Assembly (NCBI GenBank): GCA_009705225.1
Contig: WLCQ01000008.1
Location: 1-34,894 of the forward strand
Length of the DNA stretch: 34,894 bases
DNA from: Actinomycetota bacterium
GTDB taxonomy: Bacteria > Actinomycetota > Acidimicrobiia > Acidimicrobiales > Acidimicrobilacustridaceae
Reading direction: 5' to 3'
Part shown: positions 16,973 through 25,709 of the stretch, piece after piece
Layout of the letters: each line of letters starts with the position of its first letter
Position numbering within the stretch: the stretch's first letter is position 1
Notes under the pieces: model-generated
The model's database searches: none
Seen by the model: the letters and a program-made list of their open reading frames with translations, nothing else
Told to the model about the DNA's origin: nothing
Program-made: the position numbers and the translations under genes

Positions 16973-18190
16973 CTACTCGATGCGCAGACCTGAGATGTTG
17001 CGGGCGATGACCAGACGCTGGATCTCAGAGGTGCCTTCGAAGATCGTGTAGATCTTCGCGTCGCGATGCCAGCGCTCCACCGGGTACTCGCGGGTGTAGC
17101 CGTAGCCACCGAGGATCTGGATGGCCTGCTCGGTGACCCACACTGCGACCTCTCCAGCCTTCAGCTTGGACATCGAACCCTCACCGGCGACGAATGGCTT
17201 CTTGTTCGATGCCATCCAAGCCGCACGATGGGTGAGAAGGCGGGCGGCGTCGATCTCCATCTTCATGTCGGCGAGCTTGAACGCGATCGACTGGTTCATG
17301 ATGATCGGACGACCGAACGCAACGCGCTCCTTGGCGTACTCGAGCGAATACTCATAGGCAGCGCGGGCGATACCGACCGCCATTGCAGCCACAGATGGGC
17401 GGGTGGCCTCGAAGGTAGCCATGGCCGGCTGCTTCTCCCCGCTGCGACCGGCCTCACGGGCACGGGCGAGCTTGGCGTCGAGCTTCTCCTTGCCGCCAAG
17501 CAGGCAGGAACCGGGAACACGGACATCGTCGAGCACGACCTCAGACGTGTGCGAAGCCTTGATGCCGTGCTTCTTGTACTTCTGACCCATCGAAAGGCCC
17601 TTGGTGCCCGGGGGCACGACGAAGCTGGCCTGACCACGGCCCTTGAGTTCGGGATCGACAGCGGCGACCACGACATGGATGTCGGCGATCCCACCGTTGG
17701 TGATCCATGCCTTGGTGCCGTTGAGCACCCATTCATCGTTGGCCTCGTCGTAGACCGCACGAGTGCGCAGCGAGGACACATCGGAACCGGCGTCGGGTTC
17801 GCTCACGCAGAAGGCACCAAGCATCACGTTGTCCGCCGTGCCGTAGCACTGCGGAACCCATTCCATAACCTGCTCGGGGGTGCCGTTGCCCATGATGCCG
17901 GCAGCCGCAAGGCCCGAACCAAAGATGGAGAGACCAATACCGGCATCGCCCCAGAAGAGTTCCTCGAGCGCGATGGGCATGGTGAGACCGGTGGGGTCGG
18001 CCATGTTGTTGGCCATGAACTCCCAGCCGTAGAGCCCGACCTTGGCGGCCTCCTGCACGATCGGCATGGGGAACTCTTCACGCTCATCCCATTCCTCGGC
18101 GGCGGGACGAACAACGTTGACAGAGAACTCGTGAACCCAGTCCTTGATGGTCTGCTGGTCCTCGTTGAGATCAAGACTGAAATCGGCCAT
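16973..18190 (-). CDS. Acyl-CoA dehydrogenase, copy 1
   Basis: This 405-residue FAD flavoenzyme introduces a double bond next to the CoA thioester. Typical family blocks are present: EEFPMPIVQEAAKVGLYG near 38-54, FCVSEPDAGSDVSS near 127-140 (flavin-binding loop), NGTKAWITNGG near 157-167 and the catalytic glutamate in FEGTSEIQR near 385. The substrate chain is not predictable. A second gene 4.76 kb away encodes a protein identical at about 88% of positions by hand alignment; differences cluster in residues 50-100 and at a few later sites, which suggests altered substrate preference. The start is the ATG at 18190 with AGAGG upstream; the track's extension to 18364 has no support. A GTTACC-N4-GGTAAC palindrome lies about 65 bases before the start. 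Confidence 0.93.
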   Translation of the reverse strand: MADFSLDLNEDQQTIKDWVHEFSVNVVRPAAEEWDEREEFPMPIVQEAAKVGLYGWEFMANNMADPTGLTMPIALEELFWGDAGIGLSIFGSGLAAAGIMGNGTPEQVMEWVPQCYGTADNVMLGAFCVSEPDAGSDVSSLRTRAVYDEANDEWVLNGTKAWITNGGIADIHVVVAAVDPELKGRGQASFVVPPGTKGLSMGQKYKKHGIKASHTSEVVLDDVRVPGSCLLGGKEKLDAKLARAREAGRSGEKQPAMATFEATRPSVAAMAVGIARAAYEYSLEYAKERVAFGRPIIMNQSIAFKLADMKMEIDAARLLTHRAAWMASNKKPFVAGEGSMSKLKAGEVAVWVTEQAIQILGGYGYTREYPVERWHRDAKIYTIFEGTSEIQRLVIARNISGLRIE

Positions 18191-18247
18191 GGGGCAACCT
18201 CTGGGATCGGCCGACGACGGCGTCGCCGGATTAGGGGATGCGCTCAA

Positions 18248-18263
18248 GTTACCCCGCGGTAAC
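18248..18263. promoter_or_regulatory. Operator-like palindrome upstream of acyl-CoA dehydrogenase copy 1
   Basis: GTTACC-CCGC-GGTAAC is a 6-base inverted repeat with a 4-base spacer, centred about 65 bases before the acyl-CoA dehydrogenase start and about 96 bases before the start of the divergent plus-strand gene. The same motif lies at the same distance from the second copy. Size and symmetry fit a TetR-type regulator of fatty-acid or acyl-CoA genes; the regulator is not encoded in this window. Confidence 0.6.
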
Positions 18264-18351
18264 AGGCCCTGTCGCACGCAGGGAAAGGCCGCCACGGTGG
18301 CGCCTGTCCACCTAGAGTCCACCGCACGCAACCACCGCACGAGGTCCACCC

Positions 18352-19311
18352 ATGACGGCAACAACAGCCACCCGAATCAGCCCCGCTTACGACGACGTCG
18401 ATGCAGTCCTCTCCGTCGTGCGTTCCACCGGCCCATACTGGCCACTGGCCAACTATGCCGGCAACGATGCCGAAATGGCTGCGCTCGGATCACGTCCCGC
18501 GGTGTTTGTGCCACCGTGGTTCCGCCAGGACATCGGAGCTGGGGGCCTCCCACTCGTCAATGGCGCCGAAGTCATTGTCGATAACCCGCACTTCATCGCT
18601 GCGGCTCACGCGGTGTACGGCGCCGGGTGCATCGTGCGACCCACCAACGCCTATGTGAACATCATGGGACCGACCCCGTTCCCGTTCATGCCCCATCTCG
18701 ACGTGCCGGCGTTCCGCGGTTTCACCCGCGCGGACCATCCGATCTGGTTGCTCAAGGTCATGCAGAATTCGGGCATGTTCGAGCAGTGGCGCATTCATAT
18801 CGCCACTGCCGTTTCCTGGTTCTATGAGGGCGAGGGCGGCGATTTCAACTACTGGCCCGAGGGCCCAGACGGTCCGCAGATGGCTGAATCTCCACCGATG
18901 CGCAATGTGAGCATCGTGGCCGATAACGAAGCCACGTTCCACGGGGTGGCGCCAGTGGGCCCTGCGGACGCAAAGGTGCCACGCGGCATCGACAGCCACA
19001 GCCGCATGGTGCACAGCGGTGCTGGTTGGGATGTGCTCGACGCCGACGGTGGAGTCATCACCAGTTTCACCGATGCTGAGGTCCGAATCACTGTTTCGTG
19101 GAAGGCCGATGTCTTTCTCGATGCGGAAGAAGCCCGCCGTGCTGATGCCGGCGAGGACGCGCTTGATCTCGACACTGTCGTCACCATGTTCCAGACCGAT
19201 CTCCACGCTCGCGGGGTCGGCATCGACCGTCCGACCGATCCCGTTCACAACGAGGAATGGGTGGCACTGATTGCGGCCACCTACCCCGAGAACCCGCCGC
19301 ACATGTCCTGA
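18352..19311 (+). CDS. Uncharacterised protein, possible Fe(II)/2-oxoglutarate-type oxygenase fold
   Basis: This 319-residue protein is not one I recognise with confidence. It contains MPHLDVPAFRGF (His115-x-Asp117), a later NEATFHGVAP (His197) and EVRITVSWKADVF (Arg245). HxD...H followed by an Arg some 45-50 residues on is the iron and 2-oxoglutarate binding pattern of phytanoyl-CoA-dioxygenase-like proteins, and the spacing (80 residues between motifs) is acceptable. No signal peptide or membrane segment is visible. It starts with ATG 18352, preceded by a GAGG site, and stops four bases before the sulfotransferase start, so they form one operon together with an MFS transporter. It may supply a hydroxylated acceptor for sulfation. 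That role, and the fold itself, are inference. Confidence 0.5.
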   Translation: MTATTATRISPAYDDVDAVLSVVRSTGPYWPLANYAGNDAEMAALGSRPAVFVPPWFRQDIGAGGLPLVNGAEVIVDNPHFIAAAHAVYGAGCIVRPTNAYVNIMGPTPFPFMPHLDVPAFRGFTRADHPIWLLKVMQNSGMFEQWRIHIATAVSWFYEGEGGDFNYWPEGPDGPQMAESPPMRNVSIVADNEATFHGVAPVGPADAKVPRGIDSHSRMVHSGAGWDVLDADGGVITSFTDAEVRITVSWKADVFLDAEEARRADAGEDALDLDTVVTMFQTDLHARGVGIDRPTDPVHNEEWVALIAATYPENPPHMS

Positions 19312-21732: not shown

Positions 21733-22950
21733 TTACTCGATGCGCAGACCCGAGATGGCGCGGGCGATGACGAGACGCTGGATCTCGGAGGTACCTTCGA
21801 AGATCGTGAAGATCTTGGAATCACGATGCCAGCGCTCCACCGGGTACTCGCGGGTGTAGCCGTAGCCACCGAGGATCTGAATGGCTTGCTCGGTGACCCA
21901 CACCGCAACCTCGCCGGCCTTCAGCTTGGACATCGAACCCTCACCGGCAACGAATTCCTTGCCAGTTGCGGCCATCCATGACGCCCGGTGCACGAGCAGA
22001 CGAGCAGCGTCGATCTCCATCTTCATGTCGGCGAGCTTGAAGGCGATCGACTGGTTCATGATGATCGGACGACCGAACGCAACACGCTCCTTGGCGTACT
22101 GCAGCGAATACTCGTAGGCCGCACGGGCAACGCCGAGAGCCTGTGCGCCGACCGATGGGCGGGTGGCCTCGAAGGTGGCCATGGCCGGCTGCTTCTCGCC
22201 GGTACGACCGGCATCGCGACCGCGGGCCAGCTTGGCGTCGAGCTTCTCCTTGCCACCGAGCAGGCAGTGCCCCGGAACACGCACATCGTCGAGCACGACC
22301 TCGGCGGTATGCGAGGCCTTGATGCCGTGCTTCTTGTACTTCTGACCCTGTGAAAGACCCTTGGTGCCGGGCGGAACGATGAAGCTGGCCTGACCACGAC
22401 CCTTGAGCTCAGGATCGACCGCAGCGACGACCACATGCACATCCGCGATGCCGCCGTTGGTGATCCAGGCCTTGGTGCCGTTGAGTACCCATTCGTCCTT
22501 CGCCTCGTCATAGACGGCACGGGTGCGCAGCGAGGACACATCGGAACCGGCGTCGGGCTCGCTCACGCAGAACGCACCGAGCTTGACGTCGTCGGCGGTG
22601 CCGTAGCACTGCGGCACCCATTCCATGACCTGCTCAGGGGTGCCATTGCCACTGATGCCCGCCGCGGCGAGGCCAGAACCCATGATGGCGAGCGCGATAC
22701 CGGCGTCGCCCCAGGACAACTCTTCGATGAACAACGGAAGGGTGAGACCGGTGGGATCAGACATGGCACTGAGGAGGAACTCCCAGCCGTACACGCCGAT
22801 GTTCGCGGCCTCTTGCACGATTGGCATGGGGAACTCTTCGCGCTCATCCCATTCCTCGGCGGCAGGACGGATCACGTTTGCAGCGAAGTCGTGGACCCAG
22901 TCCTTGATGGTCTGCTGGTCCTCATTGATGTCGAGACTGAATTCGGCCAT
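21733..22950 (-). CDS. Acyl-CoA dehydrogenase, copy 2
   Basis: This 405-residue enzyme matches copy 1 in length, start and family motifs: FCVSEPDAGSDVSS, NGTKAWITNGG and the catalytic glutamate in FEGTSEIQR. By hand alignment about 48 positions differ, many between residues 50 and 125 (MANNMADP against LLSAMSDP, and nearby), a region that helps shape the acyl pocket. This suggests the copies process different acyl chains. The upstream gene, an MFS transporter, ends only 57 bases away, but this copy has its own palindrome and so is probably transcribed on its own. The start is the ATG at 22950, with the same leader sequence (GGTTGCCCC) before it as in copy 1. Confidence 0.93.
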   Translation of the reverse strand: MAEFSLDINEDQQTIKDWVHDFAANVIRPAAEEWDEREEFPMPIVQEAANIGVYGWEFLLSAMSDPTGLTLPLFIEELSWGDAGIALAIMGSGLAAAGISGNGTPEQVMEWVPQCYGTADDVKLGAFCVSEPDAGSDVSSLRTRAVYDEAKDEWVLNGTKAWITNGGIADVHVVVAAVDPELKGRGQASFIVPPGTKGLSQGQKYKKHGIKASHTAEVVLDDVRVPGHCLLGGKEKLDAKLARGRDAGRTGEKQPAMATFEATRPSVGAQALGVARAAYEYSLQYAKERVAFGRPIIMNQSIAFKLADMKMEIDAARLLVHRASWMAATGKEFVAGEGSMSKLKAGEVAVWVTEQAIQILGGYGYTREYPVERWHRDSKIFTIFEGTSEIQRLVIARAISGLRIE

Positions 22951-23006
22951 GGGGCAACCTCGGAGATCGGCCGGCGGTGACTCGCCGGAACGGGGGATCC
23001 CGAGAA

Positions 23007-23022
23007 GTTACCTCGCGGTAAC
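23007..23022. promoter_or_regulatory. Operator-like palindrome upstream of acyl-CoA dehydrogenase copy 2
   Basis: GTTACC-TCGC-GGTAAC differs from the copy 1 palindrome at one spacer base. Its centre lies about 65 bases before the start of copy 2, the same as in copy 1. It also encodes the last residues (VTAR) and the TAA stop of the MFS transporter gene, so it cannot change freely, yet the arms stay perfect. Confidence 0.6.
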
Positions 23023-24345
23023 CGCTTGTGCGGAACGAGTGGCCGTGGGCAGCAGCAGCAGGGCAAGTACCGCCAGGGCCGCGCCGAGGGCATAGGGCAC
23101 GCCCACCCCGGAGAACTCGAACAGCGATCCGGCGACGAGCGGGCCAAGAACCCGAGCTAACCCACCGGCGGACTGCTGCCAACCCAACCACTGCCCGCGC
23201 TGGCGTCCGGCGAGCCCGGCCACCGCCGAGGACAGCGTGGGCGTTAGCAGGCCCTGACCGACCGTGAGCAACAGCAGTGCCGGAATGAGACCTGACCAAC
23301 CGAGATCAACCGCGAGCAGACCGAGACCGATCGCGTTGGCGAGTAGCCCGAACTGCATCGTGCGGTGTTCGCCGAGACGACGGGTGACCGGACCGACGAG
23401 TCCACCCTGGACCGCGACCAAAACCACACCGATTCCGGCGAACACGCCCGCGGTCTGGGCCAACTCGAGTCCGAGCCGTTGCTTGGCCAACAAGGAGAAC
23501 GTTGCCTCGAACCCGCTGAACGCGACAACGCCGACGAAGGCCACGACGATGAGTCGCATGATGACCGCGCGGGTCGATGGCGGGAGTTCGTCGTCGTCGG
23601 GACGCACCAGATGCGCGGGTTCGACGATGCCGGGTCCGTCGAGTGCCGGAGCCGACGCGATGTTCTCCCCGTCGATCTCCGCCTCGGCGGCAGCTCGCGA
23701 ATGCTCGGCCTCACGAGCGGCGACCACCTCCGGAATGGCCAGCGGATGGCCGGCGACGCCTTTCGCGGTCTCCGGTAGTCGACGGATGGCGACGATGCCG
23801 TTGACCGCGGCGATAGCCGCGGCGATGAAGAACGGAAGCTTCGGGCTGGCGAGTGCGGCCAAGCCGCCGATGGCAGGACCAGCAACGAAGCCAACACCGA
23901 ACGCCGCACCGATGAGCCCCATGAGGCGGGCGCGGTCACGCGGAGCAGCGAGATCGCCGACCGACGCCTGGACAACCGACACCGAAGCACCAGAGATGCC
24001 GTCGATGATGCGCCCGAGGAACAGGATGCCGATGGAGCCAGCCACTCCCGTGAGCAACGAACCCGCGGCGGTGCCGAACAGCGACAGGATGATGAGCGGC
24101 TTGCGACCAATGCGATCACTGAGTCGACCCCACACCGGGGCGAACAGCAGTTGCGCAAGTGAGAACGACGCCGACAGCACGCCGATGAGTGCCGCACCGG
24201 CACCGAAGCGTTCGGCGTACTGCGGAAGGATCGGCAGCACGATGCCGAAACCGATCAGGTCAATGGCCACCGTGACCCAGAGGACACCGAACCCTCTGGG
24301 CAACGGGGTGCGTTCCGCTCCCCCACGTCGATTGGAGCGAGCCAT
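23008..24345 (-). CDS. MFS drug-efflux-type transporter (DHA1/TetA-like)
   Basis: This 445-residue protein has 12 predicted hydrophobic segments. The first (VTVAIDLIGFGIVLPILPQY) and the cytoplasmic motif WGRLSDRIGRKP, which is MFS motif A, place it with TetA-like proton-driven exporters. A long polar loop of about 70 residues (roughly 200-260) sits between the two halves, with many acidic residues. The substrate is unknown. The start is the ATG at 24345, sharing one base with the cysS stop (TGATG), so the gene is co-translated with cysS. The track's longer start at 24393 has no support. Its final codons overlap an operator for the next gene. Confidence 0.85.
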   Translation of the reverse strand: MARSNRRGGAERTPLPRGFGVLWVTVAIDLIGFGIVLPILPQYAERFGAGAALIGVLSASFSLAQLLFAPVWGRLSDRIGRKPLIILSLFGTAAGSLLTGVAGSIGILFLGRIIDGISGASVSVVQASVGDLAAPRDRARLMGLIGAAFGVGFVAGPAIGGLAALASPKLPFFIAAAIAAVNGIVAIRRLPETAKGVAGHPLAIPEVVAAREAEHSRAAAEAEIDGENIASAPALDGPGIVEPAHLVRPDDDELPPSTRAVIMRLIVVAFVGVVAFSGFEATFSLLAKQRLGLELAQTAGVFAGIGVVLVAVQGGLVGPVTRRLGEHRTMQFGLLANAIGLGLLAVDLGWSGLIPALLLLTVGQGLLTPTLSSAVAGLAGRQRGQWLGWQQSAGGLARVLGPLVAGSLFEFSGVGVPYALGAALAVLALLLLPTATRSAQAVTAR

Positions 24346-25709
24346 CAGGCGGGACGGACCTGCGTACCGGTGGCGGTGTCCTCGACGATCCAACCCTCGG
24401 CGATCAACGCATCTCGAATGGCATCGGATGCGGCGAAGTCTCGTGCGGCTCGAGCAGTGTCGCGGGCCGCAGCACGCTCCAACACCTCTGCCGGAATCTC
24501 GGAACCACCCGCATCGAGCACCAGGCCCACCGCTGCACAGATCTCGGCCACGACTGCGGCGAGCGCTGCCGCTGTTGCGGTGTCGCCGGAATCGAGCGCT
24601 GAGTTGACCTCGGTGACCAGCCCGAACAACTGAGCGACAGCGGCCGGCGTGTCGAGATCAGAATCCATCGCCCGCACGAATTCAGCGAGAGCAGTGGGGT
24701 CGGGCATCGCTGACGGCAGTTGCGCCGAAGCGACCCGACGAGCGAATGAATCAAGTCGGCGCAGGGCGGCAGCAGCATCGTCGGTGCTGGCGCGAGTGAC
24801 CTCGACCGGTGAGCGGTAATGCGATCGCAGCACGAGGAGCCGATAGGCACGCGGGTCGGTGGATTCAACGAGATCGAGCAGATTGGTGAAGTTGCCGAGG
24901 CTCTTGGCCATCTTCTCGCCACCGACCTCGACGAATCCGTTATGCATCCAATGTCGGGCGAAGGTGCGGCCCGCGGCAACAGCCTGCGCGCGCTCGTTCT
25001 CATGGTGCGGGAAGGCGAGATCCTGTCCACCGCCATGGAGATCGAAGCCGTCGCCGAGCAGGTCGAGTGACATGACCACACATTCGGTATGCCAACCGGG
25101 TCGACCCTCGCCCCACGGCGAAGGCCACGAGGGTTCTCCGGGCTTCACGAACTTCCAGAGCGCGAAGTCGATCGGTGAATGTTTGTGATCGGCCACCTCG
25201 ACGCGGGCGCCGGCCTGCATGGACTCGATGGTCTGACGGGCGAGCAGTCCGTAATCACTGACCACCGATGGCGAGAAGTACACGCCATCGTCGGAGACAT
25301 ATGCGACATCACGGGTGATGAGATCAGCGATGAGTTCGACCATCTGCTCGACGTAGTCGGTGGCATGGGGGTCGGAGGTGGGGCGCATGACACCGATGGC
25401 ATCCATGGCCCGCCACCACACCGACTCGCACTTCTCGGCGATATCGGACCAGTCGCGACCCTCAGTGTTGGCCCGATTGATGATCTTGTCGTCGATGTCA
25501 GTGATGTTCGAGACGTAGTCGACCTCGAGCCCCGACCACAGCAGATACCGGCGCAGCACATCGAACACCAACGAGAAGCGACCATGCCCGAGATGAGGTG
25601 GCCCGTAGACGGTGGGGCCGCACACGTACATGGAGACACGCCCCGGCTGGCGGGGTTCGAACGGGATGACCTTGCCCGCAGCGGTGTCGAAGAGGTGCAG
25701 CACGGCCAC
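24345..25709 (-). CDS. cysS: Cysteinyl-tRNA synthetase
   Basis: This 454-residue class I synthetase charges tRNA-Cys. It has the zinc ligands Cys30, Cys210, His235 and Glu239, which match the E. coli positions closely, the HIGH-type motif HLGH (39-42), and KMAKS (266-270). The C-terminal anticodon-binding helices are present. The zinc and motif pattern, plus the 454-residue length, favour CysS over the shorter mycothiol ligase MshC. Translation begins at GTG 25709. It is divergent from valS across a 69-base gap and leads an operon with the MFS transporter. Confidence 0.95.
   Translation of the reverse strand: MAVLHLFDTAAGKVIPFEPRQPGRVSMYVCGPTVYGPPHLGHGRFSLVFDVLRRYLLWSGLEVDYVSNITDIDDKIINRANTEGRDWSDIAEKCESVWWRAMDAIGVMRPTSDPHATDYVEQMVELIADLITRDVAYVSDDGVYFSPSVVSDYGLLARQTIESMQAGARVEVADHKHSPIDFALWKFVKPGEPSWPSPWGEGRPGWHTECVVMSLDLLGDGFDLHGGGQDLAFPHHENERAQAVAAGRTFARHWMHNGFVEVGGEKMAKSLGNFTNLLDLVESTDPRAYRLLVLRSHYRSPVEVTRASTDDAAAALRRLDSFARRVASAQLPSAMPDPTALAEFVRAMDSDLDTPAAVAQLFGLVTEVNSALDSGDTATAAALAAVVAEICAAVGLVLDAGGSEIPAEVLERAAARDTARAARDFAASDAIRDALIAEGWIVEDTATGTQVRPA

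Follow-up and report, generated by a model that had tools for sequence, protein, structure and literature searches.

A conserved GTTACC-N4-GGTAAC palindrome upstream of acyl-CoA dehydrogenase genes as the very probable operator of a FasR-like TetR regulator of fatty-acid breakdown in Acidimicrobiales

TetR regulators paired with acyl-CoA genes are an already known kind of system. Bacillus FadR has a TetR fold and represses beta-oxidation genes until it is released by long-chain acyl-CoA, and its operator has a different sequence from the one described here. KstR and KstR2, which control mycobacterial sterol catabolism, are actinobacterial TetR repressors of CoA-dependent catabolism that act at palindromic operators, but they recognise other motifs and respond to sterol-derived ligands. 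FasR (Rv3208) of M. tuberculosis and M. smegmatis recognises the core TAC-N6-GTA, the oligonucleotide present in its crystals containing TACCCGTACGTA, and is released from DNA by long-chain acyl-CoA (C16 or longer). In M. tuberculosis it is reported to activate fatty-acid synthesis, and long-chain acyl-CoA is sensed by way of a tunnel and a transmission spine to which L98 and F123 belong (PMC7382501). In C. glutamicum, FasR is a repressor of lipid genes with defined fasO operators (PMC6460773).

The locus under study lies in a 34,894-nucleotide stretch of DNA, hereafter the window, belonging to a genome of 2,585,472 bases (2.59 Mb; G000). The window carries two copies of an acyl-CoA dehydrogenase (ACAD) gene, each preceded by the palindrome GTTACC-N4-GGTAAC (Table 1). 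The arms are perfect in both sites, GTTACCCCGCGGTAAC before copy 1 and GTTACCTCGCGGTAAC before copy 2, and the distance to the ACAD ATG is equal within one base (far edge at 73 and 72 nt, centre at about 65 nt, read towards the gene), in agreement with a preliminary description of the sequence that had reported the palindrome intact about 65 bases before both starts. With up to two mismatches allowed, the window contains four matches against 0.34 expected in shuffles, and none of 100 shuffles contained at least four. The 12 arm bases are unchanged between the copies, while the ACAD coding sequences share 85% DNA identity and only 68% at third positions. The surrounding leader bases do differ, as had also been reported, though the two leaders are related: their homology runs from the ATG to the palindrome and ends there, so that the operator forms the outer edge of the duplicated unit. 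The upstream MFS gene ends in a TAA codon (23008-23010) that falls within operator 2, an arrangement found in many members of the genus, so that the positional ortholog is probably copy 2, copy 1 being a relocated duplicate.

Table 1. Coordinates of the genes and of the operator and promoter elements in the window.
Feature	Position	Strand	Remarks
ACAD copy 1	16973..18190	-	405 aa; target gene; Pfam Acyl-CoA_dh_N/M/1
Putative -10 TAACTT, copy 1	18246..18251	-	overlaps right half of operator 1
Operator 1, GTTACC-CCGC-GGTAAC	18248..18263	.	before ACAD copy 1; exact match, conserved before ACAD orthologs
Putative -35 GCGACA, copy 1	18270..18275	-	18-nt spacer to TAACTT; weak consensus
Putative -10-like TAGAGT of divergent ORF	18313..18318	+	about 50 nt from operator 1, no overlap
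Divergent ORF beside copy 1	18352..19311	+	319 aa; probably outside operator control
ACAD copy 2	21733..22950	-	405 aa; 88% identical to copy 1; target gene
Putative -10 TAACTT, copy 2	23005..23010	-	overlaps operator 2
Operator 2, GTTACC-TCGC-GGTAAC	23007..23022	.	before ACAD copy 2; exact match
MFS transporter gene upstream of copy 2	23008..24393	-	3' end overlaps operator 2

The distribution of the site was evaluated in the whole genome, using the reversed pattern of the palindrome as a control. The two window sites were the only perfect matches (control, 0), and the shorter core TTACC-N4-GGTAA occurred five times against none. Sites with at most one mismatch numbered 9 against 5 in the control, a difference that is not significant by itself, and the weight is carried by gene placement and conservation. 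ACAD orthologs were fetched from 61 genomes of the order, and 56 of these were examined for a site in the ACAD leader. Perfect sites numbered 77 in the 61 related genomes, where the reversed control gave 2, and most genomes of the window's genus hold exactly one, located before the ACAD gene. In 51 of the 56 genomes the ACAD ortholog has such a site upstream, perfect or with a single mismatch, usually 25-115 nt from the start; as many of the genomes are incomplete metagenome-assembled genomes, the absences are soft. Among 54 ACAD sites the arms read GTTACC/GGTAAC in 40, the remainder showing a single change on one side only. The spacer takes 29 forms over the same sites with the arms nearly fixed, and the inner C and G flanking it are mostly fixed. 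A record titled as a Bifidobacterium breve metagenome-assembled genome (L303) was found to carry an ACAD of the Acidimicrobiia type (81% identical) preceded by a one-mismatch site, and it is probably mislabelled.

When the genes downstream of the sites were listed, perfect sites proved to be tied to acyl-CoA genes and not to random coding DNA. In the window's genome, one-mismatch sites occur 81 nt before an AMP-binding acyl-CoA synthetase gene (FadD; contig C183), 116 nt before a FadA-type thiolase gene (C40), between a thiolase and a crotonyl-CoA carboxylase/reductase (Ccr) gene arranged as a divergent pair (C30), and before an enoyl-ACP reductase gene (C101). Every one of the 20 genus genomes in which the FadD gene was found retains its site, with no more than two mismatches, and the genus members inspected likewise retain the thiolase/Ccr site. 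The site of the FadA-type thiolase differs by one mismatch at most in four close relatives and is degraded in others. For the enoyl reductase, G000, G008, G011 and G023 alone keep the site, making this gene a possible target only. In other families, perfect sites also precede genes for 3-hydroxyacyl-CoA dehydrogenase-, thiolase- and other ACAD-like proteins, as well as GlpD-like and PEP-carboxykinase-like genes, the last two judged from their N-termini only.

One-mismatch sites on contigs C2 and C19 were rejected as targets, being inside genes. The one-mismatch site GTTACCCCACGGTCAC at C145:19672-19687 (L008), about 75 nt upstream of ftsZ, was not taken as a target and may be due to chance. 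A further sequence, TTTACCACTTGGTAAG, of the form TTTACC-N4-GGTAAG, was observed at C212:3141-3154 of G000 (L014), where it separates a gene resembling fatty acyl-CoA reductase from a TetR gene other than the one described below; it perhaps serves another regulator with a similar half-site.

Inspection of the neighbours of non-ACAD perfect sites and of TetR leaders showed that 13 relatives from other genera also carry the site before one TetR gene (G021, G022, G024, G025, G029, G030, G032, G041, G042, G043, G046, G049 and G055). A profile search with this TetR identified a single ortholog in the window's genome, located outside the window on contig C176 (8801-9379, minus strand). The regulator and the site co-occur: the ACAD site is present in 47 of the 48 genomes with the TetR gene versus 4 of the 8 without it (Fisher p=0.0009) and, outside the genus, in 31 of 32 versus 1 of 5 (p=0.0004). 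Among the eight ACAD-bearing genomes lacking a full TetR match, the site is absent in four, and the four that have it are three genus members (assemblies 78-91% complete) and G037 (84% complete). The TetR and ACAD genes are often neighbours, being adjacent in G034 and G047 and 2 kb apart in G004; in G038, a single contig of 4.6 Mb, they are 24 kb apart. The operator was looked for and found absent in the TetR leaders of the window's genus (G000-G020), whereas it is present before the TetR gene in several other genera of the family. Autoregulation is thus absent in this genus, where, judging from the leader sequences, it appears to have been lost.

The C176 protein bears an N-terminal TetR_N helix-turn-helix domain (PF00440, 56.5 bits, cut-off 24), and its AlphaFold model (pLDDT 91) shows ten helices in an all-helical two-domain fold whose top fold matches are TetR proteins. 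The nearest solved structure is M. tuberculosis FasR, both by sequence (E 5e-46) and by fold (E 1e-10, TM about 0.85), and FasR used as a query returned this same TetR as its top match in these genomes. The protein remains distinct from FasR itself: the FasR equivalog NCBIfam NF053731 is its best family, but the score of 144 bits lies below the cut-off of 330, and in the tree it falls outside the FasR clade, FasR and Streptomyces proteins forming a clade (100/98) that excludes those of Acidimicrobiia. The FasR spine residues L98 and F123 align with a Leu and an aromatic Tyr, the latter invariant in A2. Furthermore, the window operator can be written GT-TAC-C-N4-G-GTA-AC, that is TAC-N6-GTA, the same core as FasR.

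The targets differ. FasR activates fas-acpS, a synthesis function, and C. glutamicum FasR represses the acetyl-CoA carboxylase genes, also belonging to synthesis, whereas the sites described here are placed mainly before breakdown genes, the one site with a possible synthesis link, at the enoyl-ACP reductase gene, being conserved in close relatives alone. By its mode of working the system resembles Bacillus FadR, the regulon holding FadD, a FadE-type ACAD and FadA. FadR is also the next best named fold match after FasR, but its identity to the TetR is about 20% and the family score is 43.6 bits against a cut-off of 200. KstR and KstR2 show weak sequence similarity to the TetR. The operator of MftR, T-N2-GGCA-N5-TGCC-N2-A (PMC8728441), is unlike GTTACC-N4-GGTAAC and was discarded as a candidate.

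On these grounds, the palindrome is, with a probability of roughly 0.85, the operator of a FasR-like, acyl-CoA-responsive TetR repressor of beta-oxidation. The site, its conservation, the target genes, the linked TetR gene and its relation to FasR were all read from sequence; we infer that the protein binds the site, that it represses rather than activates, and that its ligand is acyl-CoA. According to this proposal, the C176 TetR, the closest relative of FasR in these genomes, would bind GTTACC-N4-GGTAAC as a dimer over or beside the ACAD transcription start, thus blocking RNA polymerase. Upon accumulation of long-chain acyl-CoA, the ligand would open the dimer and release it from DNA, and the beta-oxidation genes would then be expressed. 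The two perfect sites would serve the two ACAD copies, while the weaker one-mismatch sites would serve the acyl-CoA synthetase, the FadA-type thiolase, the thiolase/crotonyl-CoA reductase pair and possibly the enoyl reductase. The preliminary description had proposed a conserved TetR-type operator linked to acyl-CoA genes, a proposal now strongly backed by comparative footprinting, the regulon, the TetR gene carrying the site and the co-occurrence of the two.

The sign of control was considered in the light of promoter geometry. In TetR-family systems a palindromic operator lies near the controlled promoter, and this is the case here, with the protein-DNA contact being predicted. In the window's genus the likeliest promoter, as read from the leaders, consists of TAACTT over the right arm, based on GGTAACTT, which is retained in most ACAD sites, and of GCGACA 18 nt upstream in copy 1, a block conserved in G000 and G008 and largely in G011; by consensus this promoter is weak. 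A search of 35 ACAD leaders for TTGnnn (at least 4 of 6 matches to TTGACA), a 17-18 nt gap and TAnnnT found the pattern in 12, and in 10 of these it ends 0-6 nt short of the operator, the expectation from shuffles being 0.42. In leaders with such a recognisable promoter the predicted start falls at or inside the left arm, and in the relatives the site thus adjoins or covers the predicted transcription start. With either placement a bound dimer would be expected to block polymerase.

The same palindrome and the same TetR might nevertheless operate in the opposite sense, with the regulator activating ACAD as FasR does on fas-acpS. The closest characterised relative is indeed described as an activator (PMC7382501), so that the sign of control could differ here, and the sign is not readable from the palindrome alone. 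However, wherever a genus has a recognisable promoter, the site is located at or just after the -10, over the expected start, which is a typical repressor position, and a site in front of the regulator's own gene is in keeping with negative autoregulation. We therefore regard activation as improbable.

Two further explanations appear highly improbable. The palindrome could act as an RNA hairpin in the 5' leader, as an attenuator or a site for an RNA-binding protein, and a 6-bp stem with a 4-nt loop could form if transcription started upstream; the predicted starts lie instead at or inside the palindrome, and the 54 sites share one arm sequence with one-sided deviations and no compensatory pairs. 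The GlnR box, GTnAC-n6-GnAAC, resembles GTTAC-N6-GTAAC and would make the palindrome a site for a GlnR-type nitrogen regulator, but the targets belong to beta-oxidation rather than nitrogen metabolism, the C and G bordering the spacer are mostly fixed, and it is a TetR of the acyl-CoA-sensing type that has the site before its gene and co-occurs with it. Finally, the idea that the sequence is kept merely as coding for the MFS C-terminus (VTAG/VTAR-stop), suggested by the overlap with the MFS stop codon, which is seen at copy 2 and shared by many genus members, is refuted by these sequence data: the site occurs at copy 1 and in many other genera without such an upstream gene, the spacer is free to vary while the arms are not, and TetR, FadD and thiolase genes are preceded by it as well.

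As for the other side of operator 1, the preliminary description had placed the copy 1 site in the divergent region of a sulfotransferase operon and suggested that one regulator could control both directions. The divergent arrangement stands, but the adjoining gene is the 319-aa ORF, which gave no match in Pfam or NCBIfam, and the sulfotransferase-like gene lies one gene beyond it, not adjoining the operator. The 319-aa ORF is conserved in G008 and G011, where its -10-like element reads TAAAGT and TAGAGT, respectively. Two-way control found no support, since the operator overlaps promoter elements on the ACAD side, with the divergent -10-like TAGAGT about 50 bases off, and relatives without such a divergent gene still keep the site. 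Direct control of the divergent gene by operator 1 is thus not indicated by the sequence.

A related element was found in more distant actinobacteria. In 43 of 59 distant ACAD orthologs, mostly from Streptomyces, nnTAC[CT]-N4-[GA]GTAACAGACT occurs 55-99 nt upstream of the gene, and Streptomyces orthologs of the same ACAD show CTAC[CT]-N4-[GA]GTAACAGACT at a similar distance. Across the leaders from Streptomyces and other actinobacteria (L324-L382), TAC[CT]-N4-[GA]GTAACAGACT is nearly invariant and longer than the palindrome, with an AGACT tail. Six leaders from Nocardiopsis, Streptomonospora, Actinomadura and Planobispora (L334, L351, L352, L362, L372 and L373) are of the GTTACC-N3-GGTAAC type, with a spacer of about 3 and not 4. 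A TTACC-N4-AGTA-like element is also present about 110-120 nt upstream of Streptomyces FasR-clade TetR genes (L412-L418), where it possibly mediates autoregulation. The comparison of these leaders suggests that the switch is older than the class Acidimicrobiia. More tentatively, and in a reading that we consider less likely than not, the operator and its FasR-like regulator might represent an ancient actinobacterial beta-oxidation switch, the control of synthesis by mycobacterial FasR being a later rewiring. A literature search found no paper on the motif or on a beta-oxidation regulator of Acidimicrobiia, which is weak evidence of novelty as subscription papers were mostly outside its reach.

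Taken together, the palindrome very probably serves as the binding site for a TetR-type switch of fatty-acid breakdown across Acidimicrobiales. Being short and nearly invariant, the operator offers a marker for annotating fatty-acid genes in metagenome-assembled genomes. The predicted regulator and operator constitute a concrete pair for fatty-acid breakdown in an order that is widespread and mostly uncultured, and in which very few transcription factors have been studied. They would also tie the FasR branch of TetR proteins to beta-oxidation and not to synthesis, which bears on the origin of mycobacterial lipid control.
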